NCBI GenBank assembly: GCA_943787745.1
Contig: CALSNJ010000001.1
Coordinates: 248,001-312,000 of the forward strand
Length of the DNA stretch: 64,000 nucleotides
DNA from: an uncultured Alphaproteobacteria bacterium
GTDB lineage: Bacteria; Pseudomonadota; Alphaproteobacteria; UBA6615
Direction of reading: 5' to 3'
The notes under the pieces are model-generated. The model had not been told where the DNA came from, did no database searches, and was given only the letters and a program-made list of their open reading frames with translations. The translations under genes and the position numbers were made by a program. Below, piece after piece: positions 18,647 through 55,902 of this stretch (within the stretch, counting starts at the first letter, position 1; the number at the start of each line of letters is the position of its first letter).

Positions 18647-18663
18647 TGAATGACCCTGTCTGC

Positions 18664-37941: not shown

Positions 37942-38085
37942 GTTTGTTTGCCTGCGGTAGGGTTTCGATCAGATCATGGGGAACGAATGGGGGGATTACC
38001 AGATGCGAAAAAATTTCGCAGCGTCGATGCTAGTTTTCTTGGCGACATCCGTCCATGCCTCGCACCAGATGAACGGAAAATCCGG

Positions 38086-39250
38086 ATGAACGCCCCAGTG
38101 AACCTTGACGGTCTCGAAGTTGGTTTTGATGTCCCGGCGTTGCCCGGTATGGATGAAGCCGACATCCAGACTCCCTGCCTTGTGCTCGATCTCGATGCGC
38201 TGGAACGCAACATCATGAAGATGGGGGACTACGCCAAGGCGCACGGCATGCATCTGCGCGTACACGGAAAGATGCACAAGTCGGTCGACATTGCGAAGTT
38301 GCAGGAACGCATCGGCGGCGCGGTCGGTGTCTGCTGCCAGAAATCTTCGGAGGCTGAAGTTTTTGTGCGCGGCGGCATCAAGGACGTGCTGGTGTCCAAC
38401 CAGGTCTGCGATCCGGTGAAAATCGACCGTCTGGCCCAACTGCCCAAACTGGGCGCACGGGTCATTGTCTGTGTCGATGACGCCATCAACGTCGCCGATT
38501 TGTCCGCGGCCGTCAGCCGGCACGGCACGCAGCTCGAAGTTCTGGTTGAGATCGATTGCGGCCAGAACCGTTGCGGTGTGACGACACCTGCAGAGGTGAT
38601 CTCCCTAGCAAAGGATATCGATGCCGCCTCAGGGCTGAAGTTCAGCGGGATTCAAGCCTATCTGGGTTCGGCCCAGCACATCGACAGCTATGCGGCACGC
38701 AAGGAAAAACTCGACGCCGCCATCGCGCAGGTCAAAGAGATCGTAAGCGCTCTGGGCGCGGCCGGGCTGGCGCCGGACATCGTGACCGGTGGCGGCACGG
38801 GCTCCTATAATTTTGAGAGCAATTCGGGCGTCTACACCGAGCTGCAGTGCGGCTCCTATGCCTTCATGGATGCCGATTACGGGCGGATCAAGGATCAGGA
38901 CGGCCATCGGTTTGATGCGGGTGAATGGGACTATGCCTGCTTCATTCTCACCCAGGTCATGAGCCATGTGAAAGCCGACAGGGCGGTCGTCGACGCCGGC
39001 CTGAAAGTCCAGTCCGTCGACAGCGGCCTGCCCGTTGTCCATCGGCCGCGACGATGTGGAGTACATCAGTTGTTCAGATGAGCATGGCGTGGTCACCGAC
39101 CCGGCTGGCGCCCTGAACGTCGGCGATAAGCTTCTGTTGGTCCCCGGCCACTGTGACCCGACCGCGAATATCCACGATTGGTATGTCGGGGTCCGGAACG
39201 GCAAGGTCGAAACCCTGTGGCCTGTTTCAGCGCGGGGTAAGGCCTTTTAG
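38086..39250 (+). pseudogene. DSD1-family PLP enzyme (D-threonine aldolase / D-serine dehydratase type), frameshifted
   Basis: A fold-type III PLP enzyme. The PLP lysine is in HGKMHKS (about 61-67), with CCQKSSEAEVFV, EIDCGQNRCGV and TGGGTGSY following. At 39037-39041 (GTCCATC) one extra base shifts the frame: the first frame ends in unrelated residues (HRPRRCG), while the +1 frame continues with IGRDDVEYISCSDEHG to the zinc-site motif PGHCDPTANIHDW and a normal C-terminus at 39250. Without the extra C it would be about 387 residues. Either a true pseudogene or a sequencing indel. ATG at 38086 is the family-consistent start. Confidence 0.85.
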
Positions 39251-39265
39251 TCGCGGAGAATTGTC

Positions 39266-40009
39266 TCAGGCCGCGTTTGCCGCGCCGAAAACCTTCGCAG
39301 CGAAGCTCGGGTAGCGTTCGGTGACCGCGTCGGCGACTTCACCGCGTAGCAAAGTCAGGGTCTGGGCATCGGGTGCGGGTGTCTCGGGAACATGATCGGG
39401 GGTGTCGTAGTCGAAGCCGGTATGTTCGCGCACCTCTTCTGCGGTGTGTCCGGGATGAACGCTCTTGAGCTTGAAGCGTTTTGCCGCGTCGTCGAAATCA
39501 AAGACACAACGTCCGGTGACCAGCGCGTGGGGTCCGCCGGTGCGATAGGTGTTCTCCTCGCTCACGCCGGGTGCGCTGATGAAGTCGACCTTCGGCACCA
39601 GCACCCGCGCGGTGTGTTCCTCACGAAACAGGATCACCCGGGGCACCAGGAAATAGAGATAGGCCGAGCCGAAGGAGCCCGGGAACCGGACTTTGGTGTC
39701 GGGGTAGTCACCGATGCCGACGAGGTTGATATTTGCCTGTCCGTCGATCTGCCCGCCGCCCAGAAAGAATGCGTCGATCCGCCCCTGGGCCGCGCAGTCG
39801 AACAATTCACGGCCTCCATCGGTGAAGGGAGAGTTGGTCTCGCTGCCGAGCATCGAGACGCGCAACGTGCCGCCCGATTGCGCGCGTGCCAGAAGCGCGG
39901 CGGTGCCCGGAATCGGGGACTGGGCGCCGACGGCGACATGGCGTAGCCCGGACAGCATCTCTGCAACGGTGATGATCAGCAACTCTTCGGGGAGAAAACT
40001 CTGGCTCAT
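39266..40009 (-). CDS. CoA-transferase subunit B (glutaconate-type)
   Basis: A 247-residue class I CoA-transferase beta subunit: LSGLRHVAVGAQSPIPGTAALLA, SMLGSETNSPF, FFLGGGQIDGQANINLVGIGDY and SENTYRTGG-type stretches. It works with the alpha subunit encoded immediately upstream, overlapping by 4 bases. It ends 15 bases from the convergent DSD1 gene. Confidence 0.9.
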   Translation of the reverse strand: MSQSFLPEELLIITVAEMLSGLRHVAVGAQSPIPGTAALLARAQSGGTLRVSMLGSETNSPFTDGGRELFDCAAQGRIDAFFLGGGQIDGQANINLVGIGDYPDTKVRFPGSFGSAYLYFLVPRVILFREEHTARVLVPKVDFISAPGVSEENTYRTGGPHALVTGRCVFDFDDAAKRFKLKSVHPGHTAEEVREHTGFDYDTPDHVPETPAPDAQTLTLLRGEVADAVTERYPSFAAKVFGAANAA

Positions 40010-40839
40010 TCTGCGGCCTTGTGGGCATGAGGGGCATGGACGAATTCGTCGAGATAGCTGGCAAAGCCTTCTTCGGTGCGGGCGCGTTCCAGATAGTCGC
40101 GCAGATGCGCGTCGTCACCGCCATACCGCCCGAAGAGGCCAACAGGCCAGGCGCCGTTTTTGGCTTCAGCCACCGCGCTGACATACAGCCCGGGGATCGT
40201 GCCGGGTGCGAGTTTTTCATCGGCGAGCAGATCGCCGTCGTAAATTTCGTCGGCTGTCACCAGTGTCTCACGGGAGGCATGGGCCATCAGCATCATCTCC
40301 CGGCGCACCCCGATCCAGGCATTGCCGTGACGGTCGGCCAGCGGCGCATGAATGAGCGTGAAGTCCGGACGGATGGCCTTCACCATGACGATCGGGCCGT
40401 CTTCCTCGCCAAATGGGTCGGTGCCCGTGGTCCAGTCGTCGCGATGGGTCAGCAGGTCCGAGCCGACAATGCCGCGCACGGGCATGAAGGGGATGCCCTT
40501 TTCGGCCGCTTGCAGCCCGGAATGGATGGCCGGGCAGGTGCCGTCAATGATGCGCAAATTTCCGGCCTTGATCGCCGCAGTAAAGCGCGGCGCGGGCCCG
40601 TATTCATCGAGGGTTACAGCGGCCGTTTCGAGGGTTGCAACGCAGCCAGCCCCGATCAGCATATCGCCCTGGAAGCCGACCGACGGCACGCCGACCACGT
40701 GCAGATCGCGCACACCGCGTGCGATCAGTGCCCGTATGGTGGCCATGGAGCAGCCCGAATAGTCGGGTGCCAGAGCCAGCTTCGCACCATCGGGGATACG
40801 GGCTGCCAAGTCTTCGATGGTTGTGAGAGAGTCGCTCAA
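40006..40839 (-). CDS. CoA-transferase subunit A (glutaconate-type)
   Basis: A 277-residue alpha subunit: GAKLALAPDYSGCSMATIRALIARG, GVPSVGFQGDMLIGAGCVATLETAAV, FMPVRGIVGSDLL and PDFTLIHAPLADRHGNAWIG, matching GctA-like proteins. With subunit B it would load CoA on a carboxylic acid for the acyl-CoA dehydrogenase divergently encoded next door. The specific acid is unknown. Confidence 0.9.
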   Translation of the reverse strand: MSDSLTTIEDLAARIPDGAKLALAPDYSGCSMATIRALIARGVRDLHVVGVPSVGFQGDMLIGAGCVATLETAAVTLDEYGPAPRFTAAIKAGNLRIIDGTCPAIHSGLQAAEKGIPFMPVRGIVGSDLLTHRDDWTTGTDPFGEEDGPIVMVKAIRPDFTLIHAPLADRHGNAWIGVRREMMLMAHASRETLVTADEIYDGDLLADEKLAPGTIPGLYVSAVAEAKNGAWPVGLFGRYGGDDAHLRDYLERARTEEGFASYLDEFVHAPHAHKAAE

Positions 40840-40916: not shown

Positions 40917-42119
40917 ATGGATTTCTCTCTTCCCGAAGATATCGTAGCGCTTTCGGACTCTGTCGAACGGTTTGCCAAGACCGAAATCCTGCCTGCGATG
41001 GGCGCGTATGAGGATCGCGGCACCTTTCCGCATTCCATCATCGAAAAAATGGGTGATGCCGGGTTCTTCGGCGCGGCGTTTCCGGAGAGCCTTGGCGGCA
41101 GCGATGCCGGGTTCATGGCGGTCTCGGTGATCTCGGAGACGATTTCCCGACTGGCCCCGGAATTTGGCTACGCCATGAACATGCAGGCGATGACCTGTCC
41201 CTTCACGATCTTCAACTGGGGCCGCGAGGATCAGGTGGCACGGTTCGTCCCGGAACTGATCACGGGCCGGAAGATCGGTATGTTTGCCTTGTCCGAATCC
41301 GGGGGTGGCTCGGACGCAGCGGGTTCCATGAAAACCACCGCCGTGCGGGATGGGGATGTCTACCGGCTGAACGGATCCAAGCAATGGATCACCTTTGCGA
41401 ACGCGGCCGACACCGGAATTTTGTTTGCCAAGACCGACCCGGCGGCGGGTCATCGCGGGGTGAGCGCATTCATTGTCGAACCGAAATCTTATGACGGATT
41501 TACCGCGAACCCGATCCCTATGACCGGGTTATCGAACGCGCTTTGTTCCAACGCTGTCTTTCTCGATGACTTTGTGGTGCCTCTCAAAAATCGCCTCGGG
41601 GAAGAGGGCGAAGGTTTCAAGATCGCCATGAACGCGCTGGAATACGGACGCCTGACGGTCTCGTCCCGTTCTGTCGGTCTGGCGCAGGCCTGTCTGGACC
41701 AGGCTGTCGAATATGCCAATGACCGGGTCGTCGGCGGGAGCCCCATTGGGGAATACCAGATGGTGCAGCATCTGATCGCCGATATGACGACCAATATCGC
41801 GGCTGCGCGTTTGCTTGTGCATCGCATGGCCTGGTTGATGGATCGCGGGGAAGCTTCAAACCGGGCGGCCTCGCTGGCCAAATACGCCGCGGTGAATGCG
41901 GCCAAGCATGCTGCGAGTTCGGCAGCAGAGATTTTTGCCGGTTATGCATTGGCCGATGAATATCCGATCAAGAAGATCACCGCCTACGTGAATATGCTGG
42001 CTGTTGGGGAGGGCACGCCGAATGTGCAGCGCATTTTGATTGCCGAAGACACGCTGGGGATGAAAGATGCGGATCGACATCCGGTTCGCAATCGCCTTCG
42101 GGCCCCGAATGTGGAATAA
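40917..42119 (+). CDS. Acyl-CoA dehydrogenase
   Basis: A 400-residue FAD enzyme introducing a 2,3-double bond in acyl-CoA: FALSESGGGSDAAGSMKTTA and GSKQWITFANAAD are the FAD and substrate signatures, RLTVSSRSVGLAQACLDQAVEYANDR follows, and the catalytic Glu is in VGEGTPNVQRIL. A GGAGACGCAC ribosome site precedes the ATG. It leads a run with the first molybdenum hydroxylase gene (55-base gap), so both may act on one compound. Confidence 0.93.
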   Translation: MDFSLPEDIVALSDSVERFAKTEILPAMGAYEDRGTFPHSIIEKMGDAGFFGAAFPESLGGSDAGFMAVSVISETISRLAPEFGYAMNMQAMTCPFTIFNWGREDQVARFVPELITGRKIGMFALSESGGGSDAAGSMKTTAVRDGDVYRLNGSKQWITFANAADTGILFAKTDPAAGHRGVSAFIVEPKSYDGFTANPIPMTGLSNALCSNAVFLDDFVVPLKNRLGEEGEGFKIAMNALEYGRLTVSSRSVGLAQACLDQAVEYANDRVVGGSPIGEYQMVQHLIADMTTNIAAARLLVHRMAWLMDRGEASNRAASLAKYAAVNAAKHAASSAAEIFAGYALADEYPIKKITAYVNMLAVGEGTPNVQRILIAEDTLGMKDADRHPVRNRLRAPNVE

Positions 42120-42174
42120 ATAGGCCAACCAAAACCGCGCGTCAGATGCGGACTTGTTCTTTTGGAGAGAGACG

Positions 42175-44565
42175 ATGACCGATCAGGCAAACAATCCAGA
42201 TTCCAGCGTTCTTGGACGCCCCAACAGCTACATCGGCAAGGTCGTGCCGCGTCCCAATGTGCGCAAGCTTGTGCGCGGCAAGGGCCAGTTCGTTGACGAC
42301 CTGACGCTGCCCCGGATGCTGCACGCGGTGTTCCTGCGATCCCCCCATGCCAGTGCGATGATCAAAAGCATCGATACGAGTGCCGCAACAGGCATGCCCG
42401 GCGTGGTGCGTGTCGTGACGGGCAAGGAGATGGCCGAATATTGTGAGCCCTGGGTTGGTGTTCTGACCCATTTCAAGGGTCTCAAATCCGCGCCCCAGCA
42501 CGCCATCGCCGTCAATCAGGTGGCCTGGCAGGGTGAGGCTGTTGCCGCTGTGGTGGCCCAGAGCCGGGCCGAAGCTGAAGACGCCGCGGCCATGATCGAA
42601 GTCGAATACGATGTCCTGCCGGCGGTGACAGATGAAGAAACGGCGGGCGACCCCGACACCCATGTGATCCACCCCGAACTCGGCGACAACGTTGCGTTTG
42701 AGAACGGCGTGGATGCGGGGGACGTGGATGCCGCCTTTGCGGATGCCCATCATATCGTCGAAGAGACCTTCCACTTTGACCGCCACACGGGTGTGACGCT
42801 CGAGCCGCGGGTGATCCTGGCGGATTACGACGAGGCCGATGAAAAGCTGACTGTGCATATGTCCAATCAGGCGCCGCACATGATGCAGCATATCTTCGCA
42901 AAGCACCTGAACGTGCCCGAGGGTGATGTCCGCGTGATCTGCAAGGATGTCGGCGGATCCTTCGGCATCAAGGTGCATGTCTATGCCGATGAAATGGCCG
43001 CCGCCGGGCTGTCCCGGATGCTGGGACGTCCGGTCAAGTTTGCCGCCGACCGTCTGGAGTCATTTCTGACCGATATTCACGCCCGCGCCCATCGGGTGCA
43101 CGGCAAAATGGCCTTCAACGCGGATGGCGATATCACGGCCATCGAAATTGACGATCTGACGGGGGTCGGGCCGTACTCCATGTATCCGCGCACCAGTGCG
43201 ATGGAGGCCAATCAGGTCCTGAATTTCACCGGTGGCCCCTACAAGCACAAAAACTACCGGGCCAAGGCGAAGGTGGTGTTTCAGAACAAGAACGTCATGT
43301 GCCAGTACCGGGCCGTGGGACATCCGGTTGCCTTTGCGGTGACCGAAGGGTTGCTCGATAAGGGGGCGCGTGAGCTGAAGATTGACCCTGTCGAAATTCG
43401 CCGCCGCAATCTGATTGCAGATGACGCCTACCCGACCAAGGGTGCCAGCGGTATTGCCTTTGAGGGCCTGTCTCATCACGCCTCGCTCGAAAAATTGATG
43501 GCGGCAATTGATTATGACGGCATGAGATCCGAGCGTGATTCATTGCGTGAGAAGGGTATCTATCGCGGCATCGGCTTTGCTGCGATGATCGAACTGACCA
43601 ATCCGGGCGCTGCCATGTACGGCATTGGTGGCGCGCGGATTTCGTCTCAGGACGGTGCACAGGCGCGGCTCGATTCAAGCGGGTCGCTGGTCGTACACAC
43701 CTCGATCACCGAACAGGGGCAGGGAACCGATGCGATCGTTGCGCAGATCGCCGCGTCAGCCTTCGGCACATCGCCCGACAAGGTGAAGGTTGTGACCGGT
43801 GACACCGATCACGTGCCCACCGGTGGCGGGACCTGGGGGTCACGCGGCGCCGGTATCGGCGGTGAAGCGGTGCTGCAGGTTTCCAAGGTTCTGCGCCAGA
43901 ACATCAAGGAGATCGCGGGCCAGCTGCTTCAGGCTGACCCGGCTACCCTCGATATCCAGAAAGGCATGATTGTCGACCTGGGCACGGAAAACGAGCGCAT
44001 GGGCTTGGACGAACTGGCGCGGATTTCCTATTTCCGTTCTGACCTGATCCCGAAGGGGTTTCAGCCCGAGCTGATGGCGACGCGTCATTTTGTGCCGCGC
44101 GAATACAACATCGCATTCACCAATGGCATTCAGGCTTGTTATGTCGAGGTCGATCCCGAGATCGGGTTCGTGAAGATTCTCAAGCACTGGGTCGTCGAGG
44201 ATTGCGGAACCGTCATCAACCCGCAGCTCGTCGACGAGCAGGTGCGTGGCGGCGTGATCCAGGGTTTGGGTGGCGCGCTGATGGAAGAGTGCCGCTACGA
44301 TGATCAAGGCAATATGGTGAATGCCAATATGGCGGACTATCTGGTGCCCATGGCCGGAGAGATGCCTGATATCGACATCGGGCATGTGGAAACCCCGACG
44401 GCGGATTCCGAGCTCGGCGCGAAGGGCGCTGGCGAAGCGGGTACAGCGGGCGCGCCGGCGGTGGTGATGAACGCGATCAATGACGCGCTTTCACCGTTTG
44501 ATGTGAGCCTCGTTCATCAGCCGATCACGCCGGAGCGGATCATGAAGGCATTGGGCAAGTTCTGA
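42175..44565 (+). CDS. Xanthine dehydrogenase-family molybdenum-binding subunit (copy 1)
   Basis: A 796-residue large subunit of the aldehyde oxidase / xanthine dehydrogenase family. It has the Mo-pterin segments (CKDVGGSFGIKVH, MCQYRAVGHPVAFAVTE, SITEQGQGTDAI, and the active-site Glu in ELGAKGAGEAG). It would hydroxylate a carbon next to a heteroatom, or an aldehyde. No 2Fe-2S or FAD subunit is present in the window, so electron partners are elsewhere or the protein is atypical. ATG at 42175 has TTGGAGAGAGACG upstream. Confidence 0.92.
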   Translation: MTDQANNPDSSVLGRPNSYIGKVVPRPNVRKLVRGKGQFVDDLTLPRMLHAVFLRSPHASAMIKSIDTSAATGMPGVVRVVTGKEMAEYCEPWVGVLTHFKGLKSAPQHAIAVNQVAWQGEAVAAVVAQSRAEAEDAAAMIEVEYDVLPAVTDEETAGDPDTHVIHPELGDNVAFENGVDAGDVDAAFADAHHIVEETFHFDRHTGVTLEPRVILADYDEADEKLTVHMSNQAPHMMQHIFAKHLNVPEGDVRVICKDVGGSFGIKVHVYADEMAAAGLSRMLGRPVKFAADRLESFLTDIHARAHRVHGKMAFNADGDITAIEIDDLTGVGPYSMYPRTSAMEANQVLNFTGGPYKHKNYRAKAKVVFQNKNVMCQYRAVGHPVAFAVTEGLLDKGARELKIDPVEIRRRNLIADDAYPTKGASGIAFEGLSHHASLEKLMAAIDYDGMRSERDSLREKGIYRGIGFAAMIELTNPGAAMYGIGGARISSQDGAQARLDSSGSLVVHTSITEQGQGTDAIVAQIAASAFGTSPDKVKVVTGDTDHVPTGGGTWGSRGAGIGGEAVLQVSKVLRQNIKEIAGQLLQADPATLDIQKGMIVDLGTENERMGLDELARISYFRSDLIPKGFQPELMATRHFVPREYNIAFTNGIQACYVEVDPEIGFVKILKHWVVEDCGTVINPQLVDEQVRGGVIQGLGGALMEECRYDDQGNMVNANMADYLVPMAGEMPDIDIGHVETPTADSELGAKGAGEAGTAGAPAVVMNAINDALSPFDVSLVHQPITPERIMKALGKF

Positions 44566-45107: not shown

Positions 45108-45253
45108 GTTCGCTTTCCGATCAGGCCGTTCGGGACCCGATATATCATGAAAGATGTGCAACGGACTCGTGAGCGGCGACATGCCGCATACCTTTGATTC
45201 GTCTCTCCGAAGTCTCTACGCTGCCCGTCAACAAAGAACACAGGGCGGAAACC

Positions 45254-47644
45254 ATGAGTGTCGCAGACCACAGCAAAGAAGAAAGCGTTCTTGACCGCGA
45301 GAACAGCTTCATCGGGAAATCAGTTCCGCGTGCCAATGCAGCACGCCTGGTTGCGGGGCAAGGCAAGTATGTCGATGACCTGACGCTGCCGCGCATGGTG
45401 CACGTCGCTTACTATCGCTCGCCCTATGCCCATGCGCGAATTGTTTCGATCAATGATGAGGCCACGCTGGCCAGTCCAGGTGTGCTCCGGGTTTTCACAG
45501 GCAAAGATATTGCCGAGGTTTGCACACCCTGGGTCGGAACACTCGCTCATTTCAAAGGCATGAAATCCGCCCCGCAGCACGCCATGGCCGTAGACCGGGC
45601 CTGCTGGCAGGGCGAACCGGTTGCCGCGATTGTCGCGCACAGTCGGGCTGAGGCGGAGGATGCTCTTGAGCTTCTTGAGGTGGAATTCGAGGAGCTCACG
45701 GTACTCGCTGATCCCGAAGTGGTTCTGAATGAAGACTCCTATGTGATGCATCCCGACCTTGGTGACAATCTGCTGTTCGAAATGAATCATGATATCGGCG
45801 ACACCGAAAAGGCATTCACGGATGCTGCGGTCGTGGTCGAACAGACTCTCAATTTCGGTCGGCACACGGGTGTGTGTCCTGAATCCCGGGCGATCATCGC
45901 GGACTATCATTCCTCAGAGAATCGCCTGACGGCCTATCACTCGCACCAGGCCCCGCACATGATGCAGGACCTGTTTGCCCGTCACCTTGATATCCCGAAC
46001 CAGAATGTGCGGATCATGTGCGGCGATGTGGGCGGCGCTTATGGCGTCAAGGGGCACACCTATCCTGATGAGATGTCGACAGCGGCCATTTCGAAAATCA
46101 TGAAGCGGCCTGTGAAGTTCATTGCGGACCGGATTGAATCCTTCCTCACTGACCTGCATGCCCGCGATCACCGCGCACATGTGCGCGCCGCCTTTGCGCA
46201 AGACGGTGAATTGCTCGGAATCGAGATGGATGACCTGACGGGCGTTGGTGCTTATTCCATGTATCCGCGCACCAGTGCGCTGGAAGCATTGCAGGTCATC
46301 AATTATGTGGGCGCGCCCTACACGCACAAGAATTACAAGGCACGCTCGCAGGTCGTGTTCCAGAACAAGACCCCGATGAGCCAGTACCGCGCAGTCGGCC
46401 ATCCGGTTGCGGTTGCGATCACCGAAACCCTTATGGAAGAGGGTGCTCGCAAACTCGGGATGGATCCGGTGGATATCCGTCGTCGTAACCTCATGAAAGA
46501 CGATAGCTACCCCTGTGAGTTCATTACGGGATTGAAGCTTGAAGGGCTGTCCCATGAGGCCTCTCTCGACAAGCTCCTGGGTATGTTTGACTACGATGCG
46601 TTCCGCGCCGAGCAGAAAACCCTGCGGGAAGAAGGCATTTACCGGGGCATCGGGTTTGCCACTTTGGTCGAGATGACCAACCCGGGGCCACACACTTACG
46701 GGTTGGGTGGCGCACGAATTTCCTCTCAGGATGGCGCGGCTGCGCGGATGGATGCGTCAGGCGCCGTCATTGTCCAGACCAGCATCACTGAACAGGGTCA
46801 GGGCAGTGAGGCCGTCATCCAGCAGGTGACGGCAAGCGCCTTCGGGACCTCACCGGACAAGGTGAAGGTGATCTCCGGTGACACGGATAACGTGCCGGTC
46901 GGCTGGGGTGCTGGTGGCTCAGGTGGTGCGGGAATCGCGGGCGAAGCAGCGCTGCAGGCCGCAAAGGCCCTGCGCCACAATGTGCTCGATGTGGCCGCGA
47001 TCCTGTTGCAGGCAGAGGCCACGACGCTGGATATTCGTCTTGGCGTTGTTGTCGACCGGGCAACGGGTGAAGAACGCATGCCGCTGGAGGAAGTGGCGCG
47101 GGTGGCTTATTTCCGGCCTGATACCCTGCCGCAGGACTTCCAGTCGGAGATGATGGCGACCCGCCACTACATTCCCAAAAAGTACCCGGTTGCCATGACC
47201 AACAGCTTTCAGGCGGTCACGGTCGAAGTTGATCCGGAAACCGGCTCTGTTCAATTGCTCAAATTCTATTGCGTTGAAGATTGCGGCAAGGTCATCAATC
47301 CGCTGCTCGTCGATGAGCAGGTGCGTGGCTCCATTGTTCAGGGCATCGGCGGTGTTCTTTATGAAGAATGCCGTTACGACCTGGACGGCAACTTCCTGAA
47401 CGCCAACATGGCCGACTATCTCGTGCCGATGGCAGGCGAGATGCCGGATATCGAGATTGCGCATGTGGAAACCCTGACCAAGGAATCCGAGCTTGGCGCG
47501 AAAGGTGCCGGCGAGGCGGGTACGGCGGGAGCACCCGGCGCGATCCTCAATGCGATCAATGATGCGCTCAGCCCATTCGGGGCGAGTGTTCTGGATCAGC
47601 CGGTCAGCCCCGAGCGTGTGCTCAAGGCGCTGGGCAAGTATTAG
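45254..47644 (+). CDS. Xanthine dehydrogenase-family molybdenum-binding subunit (copy 2)
   Basis: A 796-residue close paralogue of copy 1, alike along its whole length (NSFIGKSVPRANAARLVAGQGKYVDDL, CGDVGGAYGVKGH, MSQYRAVGHPVAVAITE, SITEQGQGSEAV, ELGAKGAGEAG). The Mo-site Glu is kept. It also lacks small iron-sulfur and FAD subunits nearby. ATG at 45254 is used. It is followed after 32 bases by a glutathione S-transferase gene, probably co-transcribed. Confidence 0.92.
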   Translation: MSVADHSKEESVLDRENSFIGKSVPRANAARLVAGQGKYVDDLTLPRMVHVAYYRSPYAHARIVSINDEATLASPGVLRVFTGKDIAEVCTPWVGTLAHFKGMKSAPQHAMAVDRACWQGEPVAAIVAHSRAEAEDALELLEVEFEELTVLADPEVVLNEDSYVMHPDLGDNLLFEMNHDIGDTEKAFTDAAVVVEQTLNFGRHTGVCPESRAIIADYHSSENRLTAYHSHQAPHMMQDLFARHLDIPNQNVRIMCGDVGGAYGVKGHTYPDEMSTAAISKIMKRPVKFIADRIESFLTDLHARDHRAHVRAAFAQDGELLGIEMDDLTGVGAYSMYPRTSALEALQVINYVGAPYTHKNYKARSQVVFQNKTPMSQYRAVGHPVAVAITETLMEEGARKLGMDPVDIRRRNLMKDDSYPCEFITGLKLEGLSHEASLDKLLGMFDYDAFRAEQKTLREEGIYRGIGFATLVEMTNPGPHTYGLGGARISSQDGAAARMDASGAVIVQTSITEQGQGSEAVIQQVTASAFGTSPDKVKVISGDTDNVPVGWGAGGSGGAGIAGEAALQAAKALRHNVLDVAAILLQAEATTLDIRLGVVVDRATGEERMPLEEVARVAYFRPDTLPQDFQSEMMATRHYIPKKYPVAMTNSFQAVTVEVDPETGSVQLLKFYCVEDCGKVINPLLVDEQVRGSIVQGIGGVLYEECRYDLDGNFLNANMADYLVPMAGEMPDIEIAHVETLTKESELGAKGAGEAGTAGAPGAILNAINDALSPFGASVLDQPVSPERVLKALGKY

Positions 47645-47676: not shown

Positions 47677-48369
47677 ATGGCCGACGTCGAAATCATTAGC
47701 TCATCAACCTGTCCGTTTGCGCAGCGCACCCGGATGGCGTTGATCGAAAAGGGGATCGAGTTTGATCTCACCGCCATTGACCTGAATGACAAACCGGACT
47801 GGTTTCTGGAGATTTCGCCTTACGGCAAAGTCCCGGTGTTGCGTCACAACGGGGCTGTGATTTTTGAGTCAGCCGTGATCAATGAATACCTTGAAGAGGT
47901 GTTTCCTGAGCGTCCGTTGTTGCCCAGCGATCCATATCGTCGGGCACAGGCCCGAATCTGGATCGATTTCGCCAATGTGCGCTTCACCCCGCATGTCTAC
48001 AAACTCATGCTCGCGCAGGACGCCGATGCGCAGGCGTTTCAACGCGAACGTTTGACGAATGCGCTTCTCATGATGGAGCACGAGGGTCTGGGCAAACTCG
48101 GTGATGGGTCTTACTGGATGGGAGATGACATCTCTTTGGTCGACCTGACCTTCCTGCCTCATATGCAGCGTCTGGGTGTGTTAACCCATTACCGTGATTT
48201 TCAAATCCCGGATGAATGCGTACTGCTCAAGGCTTGGCTGCAGCTGATGGGCCGTCGGCCGTCGGTTTCGGTAGGTTCGGCTTCGCTCGATGTGCTGATC
48301 GAGAATTGGCGCAAATACGCCGAGAACACCTCAACTGGCACCACGGCTGCGGATATGCGCGCGGCCTAG
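47677..48369 (+). CDS. Glutathione S-transferase family protein
   Basis: A 230-residue GST: N-terminal thioredoxin fold (ISSSTCPFAQRTRMALIEKGIEF), GKVPVLRHNGAVIFESAVINEYLEEVFP with the cis-Pro and glutathione-binding Glu-Ser, then a helical C-terminal domain. The CPFAQR motif favours a redox or lignin-degradation-like (Cys-type) class, though SspA-like proteins are similar. Lies 32 bases after the second Mo-hydroxylase gene. Confidence 0.88.
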   Translation: MADVEIISSSTCPFAQRTRMALIEKGIEFDLTAIDLNDKPDWFLEISPYGKVPVLRHNGAVIFESAVINEYLEEVFPERPLLPSDPYRRAQARIWIDFANVRFTPHVYKLMLAQDADAQAFQRERLTNALLMMEHEGLGKLGDGSYWMGDDISLVDLTFLPHMQRLGVLTHYRDFQIPDECVLLKAWLQLMGRRPSVSVGSASLDVLIENWRKYAENTSTGTTAADMRAA

Positions 48370-48701
48370 CTTTGCTCGACGAGTGGGCACATGCCCGGCA
48401 CGGGTGAGGGGACCAGCAGAGTCGTTTCCTGTGACACCATAAGTGGGCGAATCTTCGCCAGATGAGCATCCCACTCAGGGCGCGCGTAATTCGCTTTGCG
48501 GATTTCGTCACGCTGGGCGACATCGTCGAACTTCCAGATATGCACGATCTGGTTCAAAGCTCCGACATCGGACTGAAAGTATCCGACGAGATGTTCGTGC
48601 ATGCGCGGGTCCTGGGCTGCGAAGCCTCCGTCCTGATAGTGCTTCCAGTATTCGGCCGGTTTGCCGGGATTGAGCGTGTAGTTTCGGATTTCGAGGATCA
48701 T
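48366..48701 (-). CDS. NIPSNAP family protein
   Basis: A 111-residue dimeric alpha/beta-barrel protein: ILEIRNYTLNPGKPAEYWKHY, GYFQSDVGALNQIVHIWKFDD and RPEWDAHLAKIRPLM are NIPSNAP hallmarks. Biochemical role unclear; often close to degradation genes. Start at ATG 48701. The 3' end overlaps the convergent GST gene by 4 bases. Confidence 0.88.
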   Translation of the reverse strand: MILEIRNYTLNPGKPAEYWKHYQDGGFAAQDPRMHEHLVGYFQSDVGALNQIVHIWKFDDVAQRDEIRKANYARPEWDAHLAKIRPLMVSQETTLLVPSPVPGMCPLVEQS

Positions 48702-48738
48702 GTCAGTGCCTTTCATTGGTGGTTTGAGGATACGAAAA

Positions 48739-48767
48739 CGCCGCCACAACAAGAGGCTGTGGCGGCG
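48739..48767 (-). terminator. Terminator of the second TRAP operon
   Basis: CGCCGCCACA (48739-48748) and TGTGGCGGCG (48758-48767) form a 10-bp perfect stem. On the minus strand it runs into TTTTCG, and it lies 31 bases after the dctM stop codon. Confidence 0.75.
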
Positions 48768-48798
48768 TATCGAATAGCGCGATAGCGCGTGCGGGTCT

Positions 48799-50118
48799 CT
48801 AGTTCGTGAACGACAAATCGACCAGGAACAACGCCATCTGTGGAAATGCCGTCAACAACACGACGAAGATCAGGGAAACCACCACGAATGGCATCACGCC
48901 CTTGAAGATATCGACGAGTTCAACATCCGGTGCGAGGTTGTGCATCACGTAGACGTTGATCCCGATGGGCGGTGTGATCAGGGCAATCTCGACCATGACG
49001 ACGATGAAGATGCCGAACCAGACCGGATCGAATCCAAGTGCCAGAATCACAGGAAATACGAATGGCAGGGTCAGGATCAGCATGCCCCAGACATCGAGGA
49101 TCGCACCGAGGATCAAATACATCAGAACGAAGATCGCGAGTACGACGTAACGATTGACGCCAAGTTCTGCGATCCAGCTGATCAGCCCATCCGTCACACC
49201 TGTGACGTTGAGAAAAGCCCCGATGATGTGGCCGCCGACAATGATGGCAAAGATCATGGCGCTGGTGCGCCCGGTGTCTTTCAGCGCGCTCTTGACCGCG
49301 GGCCATTTGAACCGGCCCATCACCGTCATCACCACCACAACACCGCTGACGCCGATCCCGGCGGCTTCGGTTGGTGTGAAGATGCCAGCATAGATGCCGC
49401 CCAGAACAACAAGGAAAATGGTCAGAACCGGGATCAGTTTCCAGGTTGAAGCAAAACGTTCACCCCAGCTGTATTTGGGGCCGATGGGCCCCATCTCCGG
49501 ATTGATCAGACAGCGGCCCCAGATATAGAGCGCGTACATGGTTGCCAGAACAATCCCGGGAACCACGCCGGCAATGAACAGGTGACCGATCGAGGTTTCC
49601 GTCCAGATGCCGTAGGCCACAAGAATCACGCTCGGCGGGATCAGCATGGCCAGTGTGCCTGCTGAGGCAATCGCGCCCGTGGCGAGTTGCGGGTCATATT
49701 TGTAACGCCGCATTTCCGGCATCGCCATCGGGCCAATCGTGGCCACGGCGGCCACACTCGACCCGGTGACGGCACCGAAGCCTGCGCAACCGGCTACGGA
49801 TGTGATCGCCAGTCCGCCGGGCAGGCGCCCGAACCACTTCTGGACGCAGTCATACAAATCCACGGCCAGCTTTGACTGGTAGACGAGTTGCCCCATCAGA
49901 ATGAACAAGGGCAAGGCAATGAACACCAGTTCACTGCCTTTCTGAACAGCATTCATATAAATTTGTGTGAGGGCGGGCTTATAGCCAACGAGCACCCAGT
50001 AGCCTGCGGCGCCAACCACCGCCATGGCGAAGGCGATCGGAACACCCATCGCAATGAGCGCCAGCATGAGGACAATGCCGGCAATTGCGAGGGTTGTGGG
50101 ATCAATAAATTCCATCAT
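48799..50118 (-). CDS. dctM: TRAP transporter large permease (DctM), system 2
   Basis: A 439-residue, multi-span DctM protein (AGCAGFGAVTGSSVAAVATIGPMAMPEM, TLAMLIPPSVILVAYGIW, EAAGIGVSGVV, ALITPPIGINVYVM). It sits 2 bases from the dctQ gene. The sequence differs clearly from system 1, so a different substrate is likely. Confidence 0.95.
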   Translation of the reverse strand: MMEFIDPTTLAIAGIVLMLALIAMGVPIAFAMAVVGAAGYWVLVGYKPALTQIYMNAVQKGSELVFIALPLFILMGQLVYQSKLAVDLYDCVQKWFGRLPGGLAITSVAGCAGFGAVTGSSVAAVATIGPMAMPEMRRYKYDPQLATGAIASAGTLAMLIPPSVILVAYGIWTETSIGHLFIAGVVPGIVLATMYALYIWGRCLINPEMGPIGPKYSWGERFASTWKLIPVLTIFLVVLGGIYAGIFTPTEAAGIGVSGVVVVMTVMGRFKWPAVKSALKDTGRTSAMIFAIIVGGHIIGAFLNVTGVTDGLISWIAELGVNRYVVLAIFVLMYLILGAILDVWGMLILTLPFVFPVILALGFDPVWFGIFIVVMVEIALITPPIGINVYVMHNLAPDVELVDIFKGVMPFVVVSLIFVVLLTAFPQMALFLVDLSFTN

Positions 50119-50120
50119 CT

Positions 50121-50660
50121 CTATTTCTCCCCCTCGGCGATCTGTTCTTCCCAGGTTTCCTCGTCACCGGTCTTGCGGATGCCGAAGAACAGCAGGTGAA
50201 GGAAGTAGAGCGCCATCAGAACCGCGCAGAGTGAGACGAACCCGCGAAGGGTCCAGACGGGGATGCCGAGATATTCGGTGTTCTTGTTGATCTTGATCAG
50301 GAATGGAATTTCATTCGCGGTGCGAACGGCAAGCAAGACAGAGAAGAACAGGCCTGAGGCAGCCCACAGCGCCGTTGCGATTCTTTTCAAACCACCCTGA
50401 AAATGTCGGTAGAGCAATTCCATGCGGATATGGCCGTTCACCTTGGTGGTGAAAGGCAGGCTGCCAAACAGGATCAGCGTCAGCAGGGTTTCATTGAATT
50501 CAATCGACCAGTCGAAAGGCGCATTGAACAAATAGCGCATGATCACGTCGGCTGTGACGATGGCGGCCAATAGCGGAATGCAAACGCATGTCGCAAATGT
50601 GTGCAGAAAGTCGCTGCCGCGATCGGCCAGCGCGAGCAGTTTTTCGATGATGAAAGTCAT
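50121..50660 (-). CDS. dctQ: TRAP transporter small permease (DctQ), system 2
   Basis: A 179-residue, four-segment protein (LLAAIVTADVIMRYLFNAPFDWSIEFNETLLTLILFGSLPF) that pairs with DctM. The charged tail FGIRKTGDEETWEEQIAEGEK ends next to the dctM start. Confidence 0.92.
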   Translation of the reverse strand: MTFIIEKLLALADRGSDFLHTFATCVCIPLLAAIVTADVIMRYLFNAPFDWSIEFNETLLTLILFGSLPFTTKVNGHIRMELLYRHFQGGLKRIATALWAASGLFFSVLLAVRTANEIPFLIKINKNTEYLGIPVWTLRGFVSLCAVLMALYFLHLLFFGIRKTGDEETWEEQIAEGEK

Positions 50661-50694
50661 GATGAACTGTTCCCCCAGTCGTCATTTCACGGTT

Positions 50695-50729
50695 CCGGGC
50701 GGCTCTGTCCTCAGATATGAGCCGCCCGG
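50695..50729 (-). promoter_or_regulatory. Strong stem-loop between dctP and dctQ, system 2
   Basis: CCGGGCGGCTC (50695-50705) pairs perfectly with GAGCCGCCCGG (50719-50729) around 13 bases, in the 93-base gap after dctP. No T tract follows on the transcribed strand, so read-through is expected. Likely protects or separates dctP mRNA so that more binding protein than permease is made. Confidence 0.6.
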
Positions 50730-50753
50730 TGCTGTGACTTCAGATCAACGTGA

Positions 50754-51962
50754 CTAGTAGTCGATCACGCCTTTTACGGGGCTGTCGATCACCATCTGGA
50801 ACTGATCGTTCCAGTTCATTTTTGCGAACTTGTCACGGTTTGCCATGAGATCGGCGAGCATTGCCTTGGCCGGGCGACCGGCCTTCTCGTTGCTTTCGAT
50901 CCATTCCTCGGTCACCGGGGCGATGATCTTTTCCCACTTGGCACGCTCTTCCGGGCTCGGCTTGATCATCTCCAGGCCAGCTTTCTTGAAGACGGCGTCA
51001 CGCACGCGACGTGACTGACGCTCATAGAAAAGTTGTGCCAGTGCGAGGTTCGTCTTCTGGGCCCAGTTGTAATAGACGGTCTTCAGATCGTCGGGCAGCC
51101 CATCGAAGAACTCCGGATTGACGCAGTATTCGAGGTTCACGGAGAACAGGCTGACATCATTGTGGTATTTGGAGACTTCCTGCAGCTTGAAGATCGGGAA
51201 GACCGGATCATTCATGGCCACGCCGTCCACCAGTCCGCGCTGTAGCGAGGTATAGGCTTCGCCCGACGGGATATTGATTGCGACAGCACCCAGTGCTTTC
51301 AGGGATTCCGACTGCATCCGGCCACCAGCACGGATTTTCGAGCCCTTGAGATCAGCCAGGGTTTCGTATTTGTCGTTGCCGATGACGTTGTAGGGCGGCG
51401 TCACCATGCCACGGCCGAGATAGACACCAAGGTTCTCGTATTCGTCCTTGAAGTATTTCGGGTAAAGCGCGACGTCCGTCATGGTTGCTGATGCTGAATC
51501 GTCAAACAGGAACGGCAGTGTCATGCCGTGCAGCATGTTGAAGCTTGTCGGCTCATAGATCATGAAGCAGGCGGTGTAATCGGCAATCCCGTCACGTGCG
51601 GCGGTGAAGCCTTCGCGCTGCGGATGCAGCGACTGTGAATGGAACTTCTGTACCTTGATCTTGCCATTGGACTCGCGCTCCAACTGCTCGAGAGCTTGCG
51701 TGTTCAGCTTCTCGATGCCGGCAACGCCGGGCAGATAGGACGCATAACGATAATTGATCGTCGGGCCGTCATAGGTGACTTTTGGATTTGGCAGCTCGCC
51801 CTTGATCCACTGTTCGGCCAACGATGTTGCAGCAACGGCACCCTCATAGGTGGTGATGGTGCTGCCGAACTTGTGGCCGTCCGCGTTGGCGGGCGCCGCC
51901 GCGAGGGTCAGCGCGAGGGCGGCGCTGCCTGCGAGCAGGGCTGGTTTGATCGTGTTTTTCAT
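50754..51962 (-). CDS. dctP: TRAP transporter solute-binding protein (DctP), system 2
   Basis: A 402-residue periplasmic binding protein, longer than system 1. Signal peptide LLAGSAALALTLAAAPANA, then NYRYASYLPGVAGIEKLNTQALEQLE, the binding Arg region KGSKIRAGGRMQSESLKALG and GLVDGVAMNDPVFPIF. First gene of its operon; ATG 51962 follows GGGAGGAAACAAAT. Confidence 0.92.
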   Translation of the reverse strand: MKNTIKPALLAGSAALALTLAAAPANADGHKFGSTITTYEGAVAATSLAEQWIKGELPNPKVTYDGPTINYRYASYLPGVAGIEKLNTQALEQLERESNGKIKVQKFHSQSLHPQREGFTAARDGIADYTACFMIYEPTSFNMLHGMTLPFLFDDSASATMTDVALYPKYFKDEYENLGVYLGRGMVTPPYNVIGNDKYETLADLKGSKIRAGGRMQSESLKALGAVAINIPSGEAYTSLQRGLVDGVAMNDPVFPIFKLQEVSKYHNDVSLFSVNLEYCVNPEFFDGLPDDLKTVYYNWAQKTNLALAQLFYERQSRRVRDAVFKKAGLEMIKPSPEERAKWEKIIAPVTEEWIESNEKAGRPAKAMLADLMANRDKFAKMNWNDQFQMVIDSPVKGVIDY

Positions 51963-52263
51963 ATTTGTTTCCTCCCGGAAAATTGAAGCTGACTGAAAGC
52001 CAGTCTGCGCTCTGAATGGCTTGGACCGCTCGTTTTGTGGCGGCGCTTGAGGAATTGAAGCACGCATGTCGTTTGATGACCAGAGCCGAGATTTCGCTGT
52101 GGGGTGGGTCAATCTGCGATCGGCTGGTGTTTCAGTGGGCGAATGCGCGTCCCCGGACCTGCAGTGGCGGAATAGGTGCTTTTCGCTGCCTTCCGTTGTC
52201 GCGATCCCGGTCGACTGTTAGGCTTTGTTCAAAGTAAGACGTCTGATGGATTGAGGAGACGAA
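51963..52263. other. Divergent intergenic region, 301 bases
   Basis: The space between the leftward TRAP operon and the rightward GrdB-like gene. It must hold both promoters. No coding frame has family support here, and I see no tRNA, strong hairpin or recognisable operator. The GrdB-like gene's ribosome site GAGGAGACGAA lies at its right edge. Confidence 0.5.
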
Positions 52264-53497
52264 ATGGTTCACGTCCGTGAAATGCCTGAACATTTGCGCG
52301 ATGCGCTGATCAATCAGGAGTTACCGGAATACGGTGACACGCCCTGGGTGACACCAAAACCGCTGGATGAGTGCCGGGTGGCATTGATTTCCACGGCCGG
52401 CCTGCATCGGCGCGAAGACCCGCCGTTTACGCCGGGTGCGGGTGATTATCGGATCATCCCTGATGACATACGACATGGATGAACTCACTATGAGCCATGT
52501 GTCGACCAATTTTGATCGCAGCGGTTTCTATCAGGACGTGAACACATCCTTTCCGATCGACCGGCTGCGCGAGTTCGCCGAAGAAGGCGTGATCGGCTCG
52601 GTTGCCGGCCGTCATTTTTCCTTCATGGGGGCCACACCGCCGACGGTGATGGAGCCGATCGCCCGTGATCTTGCAAAGGTTCTCAAGGCAGACAATGTCG
52701 ACGCTGTTGCGCTCGTCCCTGTCTGACCCCAATGCACGCGCGCCGTGGGCGGGCTTGCACACTATCTCGAAGAAGAAGGCATTCCGACAACGCAGATCGC
52801 GTTGATCCGCAAACATGCCGAAGAAATCAAACCACCGCGCACACTCGCGGTGCCCTTTGAACTGGGCCGCCCATTGGGTGCGCCCAACGAGCCGGATTTT
52901 CAGCGTCGCGTTCTGCGTGAGTGTCTTGAGCTTCTGGCGCGCGAATCCGGTCCTGTTCTTGAGGACTTCCCCGATGACGCCCCGGGTGCCGAACCTGATC
53001 CGGAGGGCTGGGCCTGCCCGGTTAATTTTGCGGCACCTGTCGAAGACCTCAGTGATGAAGACTTGATCCGTCAGGCTCTCGAACAGGAAATCGCGCTGCT
53101 ACGTCCCTGGTATGAGGAATCCAAGCAGAATCGCAAAGGCCGGACGAATTTCGGTATCTCGGGTATGACACCCGAGGAAATCGCGGCGTATATCGCCAAG
53201 GTCACCGTTGCGCGCGAGGATTCGGGATCCCCAATTGCGGACAAGCCGCCGCATCTTGCCTTCAAGCATATGGCTGATGACATGCGTTACTACTATATGG
53301 AGGCTGCTATCGCGCGCCCCGATTCGCGGGTTAGTGATTTGGAGATAGGCAACTGGCTGTGGGGGGAGACCACGCTGGGCAAGGTTCTGGTGGTGATCCG
53401 GGACTGGGCGATGGAGACCGAGCATCCGGGCTTCAAGGCGCTTGCGCCTACGGCCATGGTGCCAACCCATCAGCGGCATCGCACAATCCACGGCTAG
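52264..53497 (+). CDS. GrdB-like reductase-family selenoprotein, UGA at Sec154, with a frameshift
   Basis: The sequence matches the glycine/sarcosine/betaine reductase selenoprotein B family: RVALISTAGLHRREDPPF, then MSHVSTNFDRSGFYQDVN and FPIDRLREFAEEGVIGSVAGRHFSFMG, then VALVPV-U-PQCTRAVGGLAHYLEEEGIPT. TGA at 52724-52726 stands where the family has Sec or Cys, giving Sec154-x-x-Cys157; the frame continues to 53497 without a stop. Separately, one extra base near 52459-52474 breaks the frame between PDD and YDMDEL, so the true state is uncertain. No GrdA, GrdC or thioredoxin partner is nearby, so it is probably not a standard glycine reductase. Converges on selD. Confidence 0.8.
52727..52749 (+). 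promoter_or_regulatory. Candidate SECIS hairpin of the GrdB-like gene
   Basis: Directly after the UGA, CACG (52735-52738) pairs with CGTG (52744-52747) around a 5-base loop, and CC (52729-52730) pairs with GG (52748-52749) across a 4-base bulge. Position suits a bacterial SECIS element, but the stem is short. Confidence 0.4.
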
Positions 53498-55710
53498 TTG
53501 CGGTAGCTGATCTGGCATTCGGAACTTTTGCGTTTTTGGACCTTTCCGATGATTGCGGCAGCTGGCGCGGCACCCGCGTGCAGGTCAGCAAGGCATACTT
53601 CTGCGCGATGTTCGGGAACGCTGAACAGCAGTCCCCCAGACGTCTGCGGGTCGAACAGCAACGGATGGACCGGATGATTTGTTGGTGCGAAAGCATGACC
53701 GGCTGAGCCTTCATTGCCGGGACGTAGCGTGCTTTCAACACCTTGACGGGACAGTTCGATAGCGCCAGCGAGAACGGGTATTGCGTCCAGATCAATTTCG
53801 GCAGAGGTCGAGGACGCCTCAAGCATTTCCAGAAGATGACCGGCAAGCCCGAACCCGGTGACATCGGTTCCGGCCGTTGCGCTGTGGTCACGCATGACTT
53901 GCACACATGGTTTTAGCGAGGTTTGCATGGATGTCAGTGCAGCATCGATCCAGTCACCACGTGCTTCGGCGCGCATATCTGCAGCAAATAGAACGCCGGT
54001 TCCAATCGGTTTGGTCAGGATCAAGGCGTCGCCGGGACGGAGACCGCCTTTTCGGATGATGGTCTCAGGTGCTGCATAGCCGTTGATGGTCAGGCCGAAG
54101 GCCATTTCTGCACCTTCGCCGGTGTGACCTCCGGCAAGCACAGCGCCGGCTTCGGCAAGGGTTTCGGTCGCCCCGGCGAGCAGCTGATAAAGATCGCCAC
54201 CCATTTTGTCGTCATCACCATGGGGCAACATGACGGCCGCCAGAGCTGTGTGGGGGTCGGCACCCATAGCAAAGATGTCGCCCAGACAATGATTCGCCGC
54301 GATCCGTCCAAACAGGAAGGGGTCGTCGATAAAGGCCCGAAACTGATCCACTGTCTGGATCAGGGATTTTCCCGCCGGAGGCGTCATGACGGCAGCGTCG
54401 TCGGGCGCGTCGAGGCCCTGATCGAGACCTTCAATTGTCTGGATTGGAAGCCGGCTTAATGCACGGCGCAGGACGGGAGCGGGGACCTTGGCGCCACAGC
54501 CACCGCAGCGCATGTCCTCCAGCACGTCGTTTGTTGCGCCTTTGCCCGCATTCATGTCGGGCAGCTCCTGATACTTCTTCATCCACCGCCGGTCGATCCA
54601 GTCCTTCCAGCGCCAGACCCAATGGCCTTCAAAAGCAAAAGGCCCACGCGCGGCAATCGCATAGTGTTCGCCGGTGGTGATCAGCGCGAGGGTTTGGCCC
54701 TGCGGTTTGAATATTCTCAGCGCTTGCCCCGTCGCAACGCGTCGCAGGTTTTCTGCCAGATAGGGCCCCTGCCGAACTGCGTAGACGCCCGCCTTTGGCA
54801 GGTTGTGACTGTCCATTGACGCAGCATCTCCGACCGCAAACACCTGCGGGTGTGACGGGGAGCGCAAATGGTCGTCCACCCGGACAAACCCGTGATCGTC
54901 GCGTGCGAGGCTTGTTTCGGCCAGCCATTTGGGTGGACCAGCGGAGGTCACCAATATTGTCTGGTCGCTGGGTACAGACTTGTCGCCCGCGAGTTCGACG
55001 CGCGTCGCAGTAATGCTTGTGACAGCTGCGCCGAGGCGAAGGTCGATGTTGCGTGTCTTCAGGGCGCGCACCATCTTTGCCCGTGCCGCCGCGTTGTAAC
55101 GGGGCAACAGCACGTTGTTGGCCTCAATCAGCGTGAAGCTGAATGACCCAGGCTCGCGGCCCAGTTCTTTGGCCGCTTCCCGAAGACGGAAGCTCAGTCC
55201 GAGAATCAGCTCAACGCCACCAGCCCCGCCCCCAACGACGGTCAGATGAAACGGTCCCTCATGCGTGCGAATTCGCTCGGTGAGCCCGTGATAGGCCTCG
55301 AGAAACCGATCGATGGGTTTGACGGGAAGGGCGTATTCCGCGCCTTCAATATCTAGCGTGGAGGGCGTGGACCCGGTGTCGATCGACAGCAGGTCGAAGG
55401 GAATGGCCGGTCGGCCCGCGAGCGCCAGAAAGTTATTGTCGAGATCGATGCCGGTTGCCGGTGCATGGATCAGCCGTGCTTTGGCAAACGCTGCCAGCGG
55501 TCGCAGATCAATATGGGCTTCGGCCTGAGAATAGTGACCGGCGATGTATCCGGGGATCATGCCGGAATAGGGGGTCAGCATGTCGCGCGCGATCAGGGTC
55601 AGGCGTACGCCTGGTTCGGGCTTCATGCCAAAACGCTTGAGCACATCAACATGACTGTGGCCGCCGCCAACCAGAACGATGTCGCGGCGAATGGGAACCG
55701 TTGGCGTCAT
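53494..55710 (-). CDS. selD: NADH dehydrogenase-like FAD domain fused to selenide, water dikinase (SelD)
   Basis: A 738-residue fusion. Residues 1-370 form a pyridine-nucleotide-disulfide/NDH-2-like FAD domain (DIVLVGGGHSHVDVL, LTVVGGGAGGVEL, VFAVGDAA). From about 395 follows SelD, which makes selenophosphate from selenide and ATP for Sec insertion and tRNA selenation: MRCGGCGAK with Cys402, Cys405 and Lys408, TVDQFRAFIDDPFLFGRIAANHCLGDIFAMGA, AGGHTGEGAEM and TDVTGFGLAGHLLEM. This fusion is known in many proteobacteria. ATG 55710 is chosen since the longer frame runs into the tRNA gene. Confidence 0.95.
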   Translation of the reverse strand: MTPTVPIRRDIVLVGGGHSHVDVLKRFGMKPEPGVRLTLIARDMLTPYSGMIPGYIAGHYSQAEAHIDLRPLAAFAKARLIHAPATGIDLDNNFLALAGRPAIPFDLLSIDTGSTPSTLDIEGAEYALPVKPIDRFLEAYHGLTERIRTHEGPFHLTVVGGGAGGVELILGLSFRLREAAKELGREPGSFSFTLIEANNVLLPRYNAAARAKMVRALKTRNIDLRLGAAVTSITATRVELAGDKSVPSDQTILVTSAGPPKWLAETSLARDDHGFVRVDDHLRSPSHPQVFAVGDAASMDSHNLPKAGVYAVRQGPYLAENLRRVATGQALRIFKPQGQTLALITTGEHYAIAARGPFAFEGHWVWRWKDWIDRRWMKKYQELPDMNAGKGATNDVLEDMRCGGCGAKVPAPVLRRALSRLPIQTIEGLDQGLDAPDDAAVMTPPAGKSLIQTVDQFRAFIDDPFLFGRIAANHCLGDIFAMGADPHTALAAVMLPHGDDDKMGGDLYQLLAGATETLAEAGAVLAGGHTGEGAEMAFGLTINGYAAPETIIRKGGLRPGDALILTKPIGTGVLFAADMRAEARGDWIDAALTSMQTSLKPCVQVMRDHSATAGTDVTGFGLAGHLLEMLEASSTSAEIDLDAIPVLAGAIELSRQGVESTLRPGNEGSAGHAFAPTNHPVHPLLFDPQTSGGLLFSVPEHRAEVCLADLHAGAAPAAAIIGKVQKRKSSECQISYRN

Positions 55711-55806
55711 GAATCTTTCAGTCTGACTGGTGCCGGTTGCTGGCGTTGGTTGTACGTCACCATAAACACCCAAGGGGCTGAACCCTTCCCGCAATAACGC
55801 GGAAAT

Positions 55807-55902
55807 TGGCGGAAGAGGGTGGGAGTCGAACCCACCAGGCACGTCTAACGCCCCTCACCGGTTTTGAAGACCGGGCGCCCCACCGGGGAACGGTCCTCCT
55901 CC
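55807..55902 (-). tRNA. selC: tRNA-Sec (anticodon UCA)
   Basis: A 96-base tRNA with all Sec hallmarks: an 8-bp acceptor (GGAGGAGG with CCTCTTCC), anticodon stem CCGGT/ACCGG around loop CTTCAAA (anticodon TCA), a long variable arm, a T-arm with GGGTTCGACTCCC and encoded GCCA end. It lies 97 bases upstream of selD on the same strand, and the two may share a transcript. It decodes the three in-frame UGA codons in this window. Confidence 0.96.

Follow-up and report, generated by a model that had tools for sequence, protein, structure and literature searches.

The selenoprotein gene in the window (the whole stretch of 64,000 nucleotides analysed here) belongs to a family that, judged by its sequences, consists of genuine selenoproteins in which an in-frame UGA encodes selenocysteine. 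On the same grounds the family is a separate subfamily, of about 405 residues, of the GrdB/PrdB superfamily, nearest to PrdB and not to GrdB. The explanation that we favour, and to which we give about an even chance of being right, is that of a genuine selenoprotein reductase, in a subfamily of its own, that would be thiol-dependent and would work without GrdA or a pyruvoyl subunit (GrdE, PrdA); the selenocysteine is supported by several lines of evidence, while the reductase chemistry, the thiol electron donor and any substrate are what we infer.

Table 1. Features in and around the selenoprotein locus (positions are those of the window).
Feature	Position	Strand	Basis or remark
PrdB/GrdB-superfamily selenoprotein gene	52264..53497	+	410 codons and one extra base; frame broken in the window copy
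AGGAG, ribosome-binding-site-like, upstream of ATG 52264	52254..52258	+	sequence
Single-base insertion, approximate site, frame 1 to frame 2	52468	+	no extra base here in L032, L033, L037, L045
UGA read as selenocysteine, U154 in U-P-Q-C	52724..52726	+	same codon in relatives; Cys in L123, L124; SelA co-occurrence
Predicted bSECIS hairpin	52733..52759	+	folding against shuffles
Helical C-terminal domain, residues 264-406, past the end of the PrdB match	53054..53482	+	HMM match limits and AlphaFold model
selD fused to a pyridine nucleotide-disulfide oxidoreductase domain	53494..55842	-	SelD part over cut-off
tRNA-Sec	55807..55902	-	
NIPSNAP protein and TRAP transporter genes, between GST and selenoprotein gene	48366..52112	-	TRAP genes also there in the related L037, L045
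Glutathione S-transferase (GST), CPFAQRTR N-terminus	47677..48369	+	immediately precedes the selenoprotein gene in most GTDB-family loci
Second Mo hydroxylase large subunit	45194..47644	+	syntenic in the GTDB family
Xanthine-dehydrogenase/CO-dehydrogenase-type Mo hydroxylase large subunit	42154..44565	+	syntenic in the GTDB family
Acyl-CoA dehydrogenase	40917..42119	+	syntenic in part of the GTDB family
Two-subunit CoA transferase	39266..40839	-	syntenic in part of the GTDB family

A sequence-only reading of the window had described a GrdB-like gene with Sec-x-x-Cys beside selD and tRNA-Sec, and a gene of the GrdB/PrdB superfamily with an in-frame TGA that yields U-P-Q-C was confirmed there; what that reading missed is the extra base, owing to which the gene is not a single open frame. 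Specifically, frame 1 from the ATG runs into a TGA directly after 52478, and the remainder of the gene, with the selenocysteine codon and the end, is in frame 2, a single four-base step near 52468 giving a protein of 410 residues. Complete relatives have open frames with a single TGA, the exception being the more distant L020 with an added TAG, and intact relatives are 88-92% identical in the same genus and 79-85% identical in a sister genus. The window copy was most likely broken by a sequencing error or a recent mutation. Because a second gene of the window, encoding a BhcC-like 3-hydroxy-D-aspartate aldolase (37948-39081), is also frame-broken, near its 3′ end, as assembly indels would give, such indels are the simpler cause of the shift at 52468. 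The one-base insertion would also fit a pseudogene, with a genuine frameshift and no full-length protein made any more, but the UGA, the SECIS codons and the remainder of the frame are all kept, and we regard this reading, which concerns the window copy and not the family, as rather unlikely.

The case for selenocysteine was built on relatives from a scan of GTDB genomes, in which 245 were detected and 79 loci kept; the patterns used did not contain the active site. The kept loci come from Alphaproteobacteria, Desulfobacterota, Geobacteraceae, SAR202 and other Chloroflexi, Nitrospinota and Gammaproteobacteria, and in 78 of the 79 a TGA occupies one and the same codon, within UPxCTR (UPxCTRAV); the remaining locus, L047, is not readable in one frame. 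Relatives from the window's own GTDB family share this codon as well. A scan of the class added two long copies (L123 and L124) in which Cys replaces the TGA, as it does in several short relatives, and these long Cys versions are confined to genomes where SelA was not found. SelA accompanies the TGA copy in 25 of 27 genomes and the stop-free copies in none of six (Fisher p = 2.5e-5), a count that excludes one genome whose copy is broken by a TAG. The machinery for selenocysteine is complete in the window's own genome, with tRNA-Sec and selD inside the window and selB and selA 2-5 kb past its end.

A SECIS-like constraint after the UGA is shown by both folding and silent sites. The stability of the bSECIS-like hairpin 3′ of the UGA, measured against shuffles, has a mean z of -0.80 compared with -0.02 in control stretches of the same genes (p = 2e-11). 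Codons 158-160 (ACG CGC GCC, 52736-52744) have silent-site entropies of 0, 0.37 and 0.31 bits across phyla, whereas 50 other conserved columns, all with four or more synonymous codons, average 1.77 bits with a minimum of 0.98; in the Cys copies the three codons are ACA CGC GCG (L123) and ACC CGC GCC (L124). Chance read-through of a stop codon was considered too, and was rejected on the conservation, the Sec/Cys pairs and the silent-site freezing.

As for the family to which the protein belongs, the sequence-only reading was right about the superfamily and the UGA site, but the closest characterised family by HMM scores is PrdB and not GrdB. The window protein matches the Pfam model GRDB (PF07355) at 35 bits (gathering score 22), which places it in the superfamily, and its best NCBIfam match is PrdB (TIGR04483), at 122 bits against an equivalog cut-off of 300 bits, with no more than 126 bits reached in its own family. 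The GrdB-type NCBIfam models reach 46-58 bits against cut-offs of 65-800, with TIGR01917 (cut-off 602 bits) and TIGR01918 (65 bits) both undershot at 46-49 bits. The same five models, TIGR04483 among them, are matched by every one of the 56 members of alignment A3 (126 bits for PrdB in the first member), and none of 398 Pseudomonadota genomes has a PrdB over the cut-off. The tree is of a quick kind and was built without authentic PrdB and without the out-of-frame row L022, the distance to PrdB resting on the curated HMM; in it the window protein falls within the long family, which a branch with support 89 sets apart from the short orphan relatives, and the true GrdB of genome G017 is a very long branch.

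The homology to PrdB, the 26-kDa selenoprotein subunit of D-proline reductase, extends over residues about 31-226 and takes in the Sec of UxxC, the U154-P-Q-C of the window protein being inside the stretch aligned to the PrdB model. Unlike PrdB, however, whose model is 238 long, the window family adds a helical C-terminal domain of about 150 residues, and the family genomes searched are without PrdA. GrdB, the selenoprotein B of glycine/sarcosine/betaine reductase, is of the same superfamily and also has a UxxC active site, but its N-terminal half is long and its motif is UxxCxxC (UGTCTRC in the true GrdB of L120), whereas the window family has Sec at 154, in UPxCTRA, and neither GrdA nor GrdE in the window's own genome. 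The short orphan relatives (280-320 residues; UPxCHQ or UPLDHQ) share the superfamily, the occurrence of Sec and Cys versions and, in the class scan, the absence of a pyruvoyl partner, but they form a separate group in the tree and do not have a helical C-terminal domain of the long-family kind. Short Cys relatives of this orphan type (L139-L144, L146, L147), with NCPxCHQ and similar motifs, are found in large and small genomes and represent a second, uncharacterised subfamily. The long family also turned up in a record titled as a Klebsiella pneumoniae MAG (L050), a title that looks wrong for its content.

In the AlphaFold model of the window protein (pLDDT 88), an alpha/beta core (about 33-240) is followed by a low-confidence linker (243-258), which carries Cys251, and by the helical domain, which reaches a pLDDT of 93.8 when predicted alone. 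Cys251 is present in 55 of the 56 members of alignment A3 and, by eye, missing in L131-L134. The best structural matches in the PDB have a Z of 8.0 for the core (rmsd 4.0, 141 aligned) and of 4.4 for the C-terminal domain (rmsd 4.4, 103 aligned). Sequence and profile searches of the PDB gave no match, Foldseek and VIA-align gave no clear match to the whole model or to the C-terminal domain, and the likeness to aspartate/glutamate racemase that was expected beforehand is not in the structural match lists. Since the core fold has no strong match in the PDB, the active site cannot be mapped.

In D-proline reductase the catalytic pyruvoyl group sits on PrdA; work by Kabisch and colleagues is cited in PMC1088965. 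The window's own genome (97.9% complete) has neither GrdA (PF04723) nor GrdE-type proteins (PF09338), and 59 of 60 searched genomes are without them; the remaining one, G017, has GrdA, GrdE and a true GrdB on one contig, and thereby provides a positive control for the partner searches. PF09338 was likewise not found in the class, in 289 genomes that include 35 with the family or its short relatives. PrdA (TIGR04480) was not detected in the window's own genome, and in 35 family-bearing genomes the sole match was a weak cross-hit with the G017 GrdE. A glycine reductase with its partners encoded elsewhere was therefore rejected, on the absence of PF04723 and PF09338 from the window's own genome. 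The earlier description of the protein as an orphan without glycine-reductase partners is thus borne out, and the outcome that had been named as speaking against it, a place within true GrdB together with a GrdA elsewhere in the genome, is found neither in the tree nor in the searches for the two Pfam families. The glycine-reductase-type cluster of G017 itself (L120, contig C131) is part of an alphaproteobacterial assembly of about 510 contigs and could be contamination.

While selD and tRNA-Sec do adjoin the gene, they are not its sole neighbours, although they had been named as its only partner set: a GST, a Mo-hydroxylase/CoA-transferase cluster and, beyond the window, selB and selA are close by too, and the more restricted partner set was read because the gene is inside a Sec-machinery locus. 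Across the window's GTDB family the genes run from CoA transferases through acyl-CoA dehydrogenase, Mo hydroxylases and GST to the selenoprotein and selD, and a GST is directly upstream also in two Gammaproteobacteria (L086, L092) and in L132. Sec-machinery genes and tRNA-Sec adjoin the family gene in several other alphaproteobacterial families. A Rhodospirillales clade has an AhpD-like gene with its own UGA (C-x-Y-U) just upstream, often with a second such gene near, and AhpD-like genes are downstream in L097 and L105 (known or probable Nitrospinota). Not every family locus has thiol-protein neighbours: most loci of Desulfobacterota and Chloroflexi show none, and in many of these loci no recurrent partner was seen. 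Some genomes have tandem copies (L033, L055, L085, L098, also G001, G004 and G005), which are about 13-63 bp apart and mutually diverged, possibly hinting at two-component assemblies.

AhpD/carboxymuconolactone-decarboxylase-like genes with an in-frame TGA in C-x-Y-U, often two per locus and not far from the PrdB-like gene, were noted in L048, L051, L054, L056, L057, L058, L063, L066 and L072. The window's own genome has an AhpD-like match with an in-frame TGA (G000:C1:324379-324684), about 24 kb from the PrdB-like gene, which is possibly a further selenoprotein. A recurring ORF cluster (C13) is probably antisense to an AhpD-like gene and was excluded from use.

With regard to mechanism, superfamily members of known function are reductases (PMC13188914). 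With no pyruvoyl subunit, that route of activation would be closed to an amino acid such as glycine or proline, and the substrate is therefore expected to be an electrophile in its own right. The selenolate of Sec154 would attack such an already activated substrate, with no need for a Schiff base with a pyruvoyl group, and Cys157 of the U-x-x-C would resolve the Se-substrate adduct to leave a selenenylsulfide, the Se-S bond of which small thiols or thiol proteins would then reduce. Given the thiol-redox proteins nearby, the likeliest reductant is glutathione, together with the neighbouring GST, in the window's family, or an AhpD-like protein in other lineages, although the GST association may be partly chance because GST genes are common. 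A part in electron transfer is possible for Cys251, which would act as a shuttle from its place on the mobile linker leading into the helical C-terminal domain.

Other functions have to be weighed against a thiol-dependent reductase of this kind. The enzyme might instead be catabolic and carry out one reductive step in the pathway of the conserved cluster (Mo hydroxylases, CoA transferase, acyl-CoA dehydrogenase, CaiB and, in the genus, TRAP uptake), for example a D-proline-like ring or C-N opening of a hydroxylated heterocycle. PrdB does cleave a ring C-N bond (PMC13188914) and several genera of the GTDB family keep the cluster in synteny around the gene, but in other phyla and most other Alphaproteobacteria no such cluster was seen next to it, no pyruvoyl subunit is there for amino-acid activation, and the gene abuts selD too, so the cluster may be a mere next-door neighbour; we consider a catabolic role unlikely. 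A protective reductase, acting on organic hydroperoxides or other harmful electrophiles with the GST and AhpD-like proteins as companions, appears to us just as unlikely. It would suit these neighbours and the spread of the family over metabolically very different lineages, and passages of one marine survey describe many of its selenoproteins as thiol oxidoreductases, e.g. peroxiredoxins (PMC2398784), but superfamily members of known function reduce amino acids and not peroxides (PMC13188914), and AhpD-like proteins are not necessarily peroxidases. Far less probable than either, and largely refuted, is a real D-proline reductase (PrdB) or a glycine-type reductase with its partner encoded elsewhere: PrdB is the best HMM match and is the name given to the marine family in survey passages (PMC1088965, PMC2398784), but the score is far below the equivalog cut-off, PrdA was not found in the 35 family-bearing genomes, and PF09338 is absent from the window's own genome and from the 289 genomes of the class.

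The family has probably been counted before. Passages of the Sargasso Sea and GOS surveys put the number of marine selenoproteins with UxxC that are called ‘proline reductase PrdB’ at 42 (PMC1088965) and 235 (PMC2398784), and Geobacter and Anaeromyxobacter have a ‘proline reductase’ according to a survey of 2006 (PMC1794560). The survey proteins resemble the present family in their UxxC and in their abundance in the sea; a missing PrdA, an extra domain and the neighbourhood are matters on which the survey passages, unlike the present analysis, are silent. Survey ‘PrdB’ is likely to be mostly the long family and its short relatives. The proposal of an undescribed selenium-dependent reductase holds to the extent that the enzyme is uncharacterised, but, as far as these passages go, it has likely been included under ‘proline reductase PrdB’, probably a misnomer, since 2005-2008 (PMC1088965, PMC2398784, PMC1794560). 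Thus, this is not the discovery of a new selenoprotein; what is new is that the common ‘PrdB’ label is probably wrong and the setting another one. We hold it tentatively, at somewhat less than an even chance, that this family, among the commonest selenoprotein families in the sea and for years labelled D-proline reductase, represents a new type of selenoenzyme within the superfamily, one that dispenses with both GrdA and a pyruvoyl partner, is recharged by glutathione or AhpD-type thiol proteins and acts on an undescribed substrate.

A precedent for GrdB relatives with substrates other than amino acids is found in the GrdB-like proteins of fluoroacetate dehalorespiration in Synergistota (PMC10838667), which by analogy suggests that the superfamily can act beyond amino acids. 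That system differs in having an operon of four genes, two of them related to the GrdB complex and the others for an antiporter and a radical SAM protein, a gene set that was not recognised among the recurring neighbours of the family loci. In the open-access literature, PrdB-like or GrdB-like wording was found for Synergistota only, and no mention of orphan forms from Proteobacteria was found.

The correct label matters, since survey passages place ‘PrdB’ with the most abundant selenoproteins of the sea, under a name that implies amino-acid reduction, and should that name be wrong, the purpose that selenium serves in much of the marine and sediment community would have to be worked out anew. 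Moreover, because the gene is in the Sec-machinery locus in several alphaproteobacterial lineages, the substrate of the family may be a main reason for keeping selenocysteine there. Intact copies, Cys versions and candidate electron donors make the function of the family testable. Elsewhere in the window, an IS3-type transposase and two overlapping tandem extradiol-dioxygenase-like ORFs were recognised by eye at 20396-21214 and 17792-19533.
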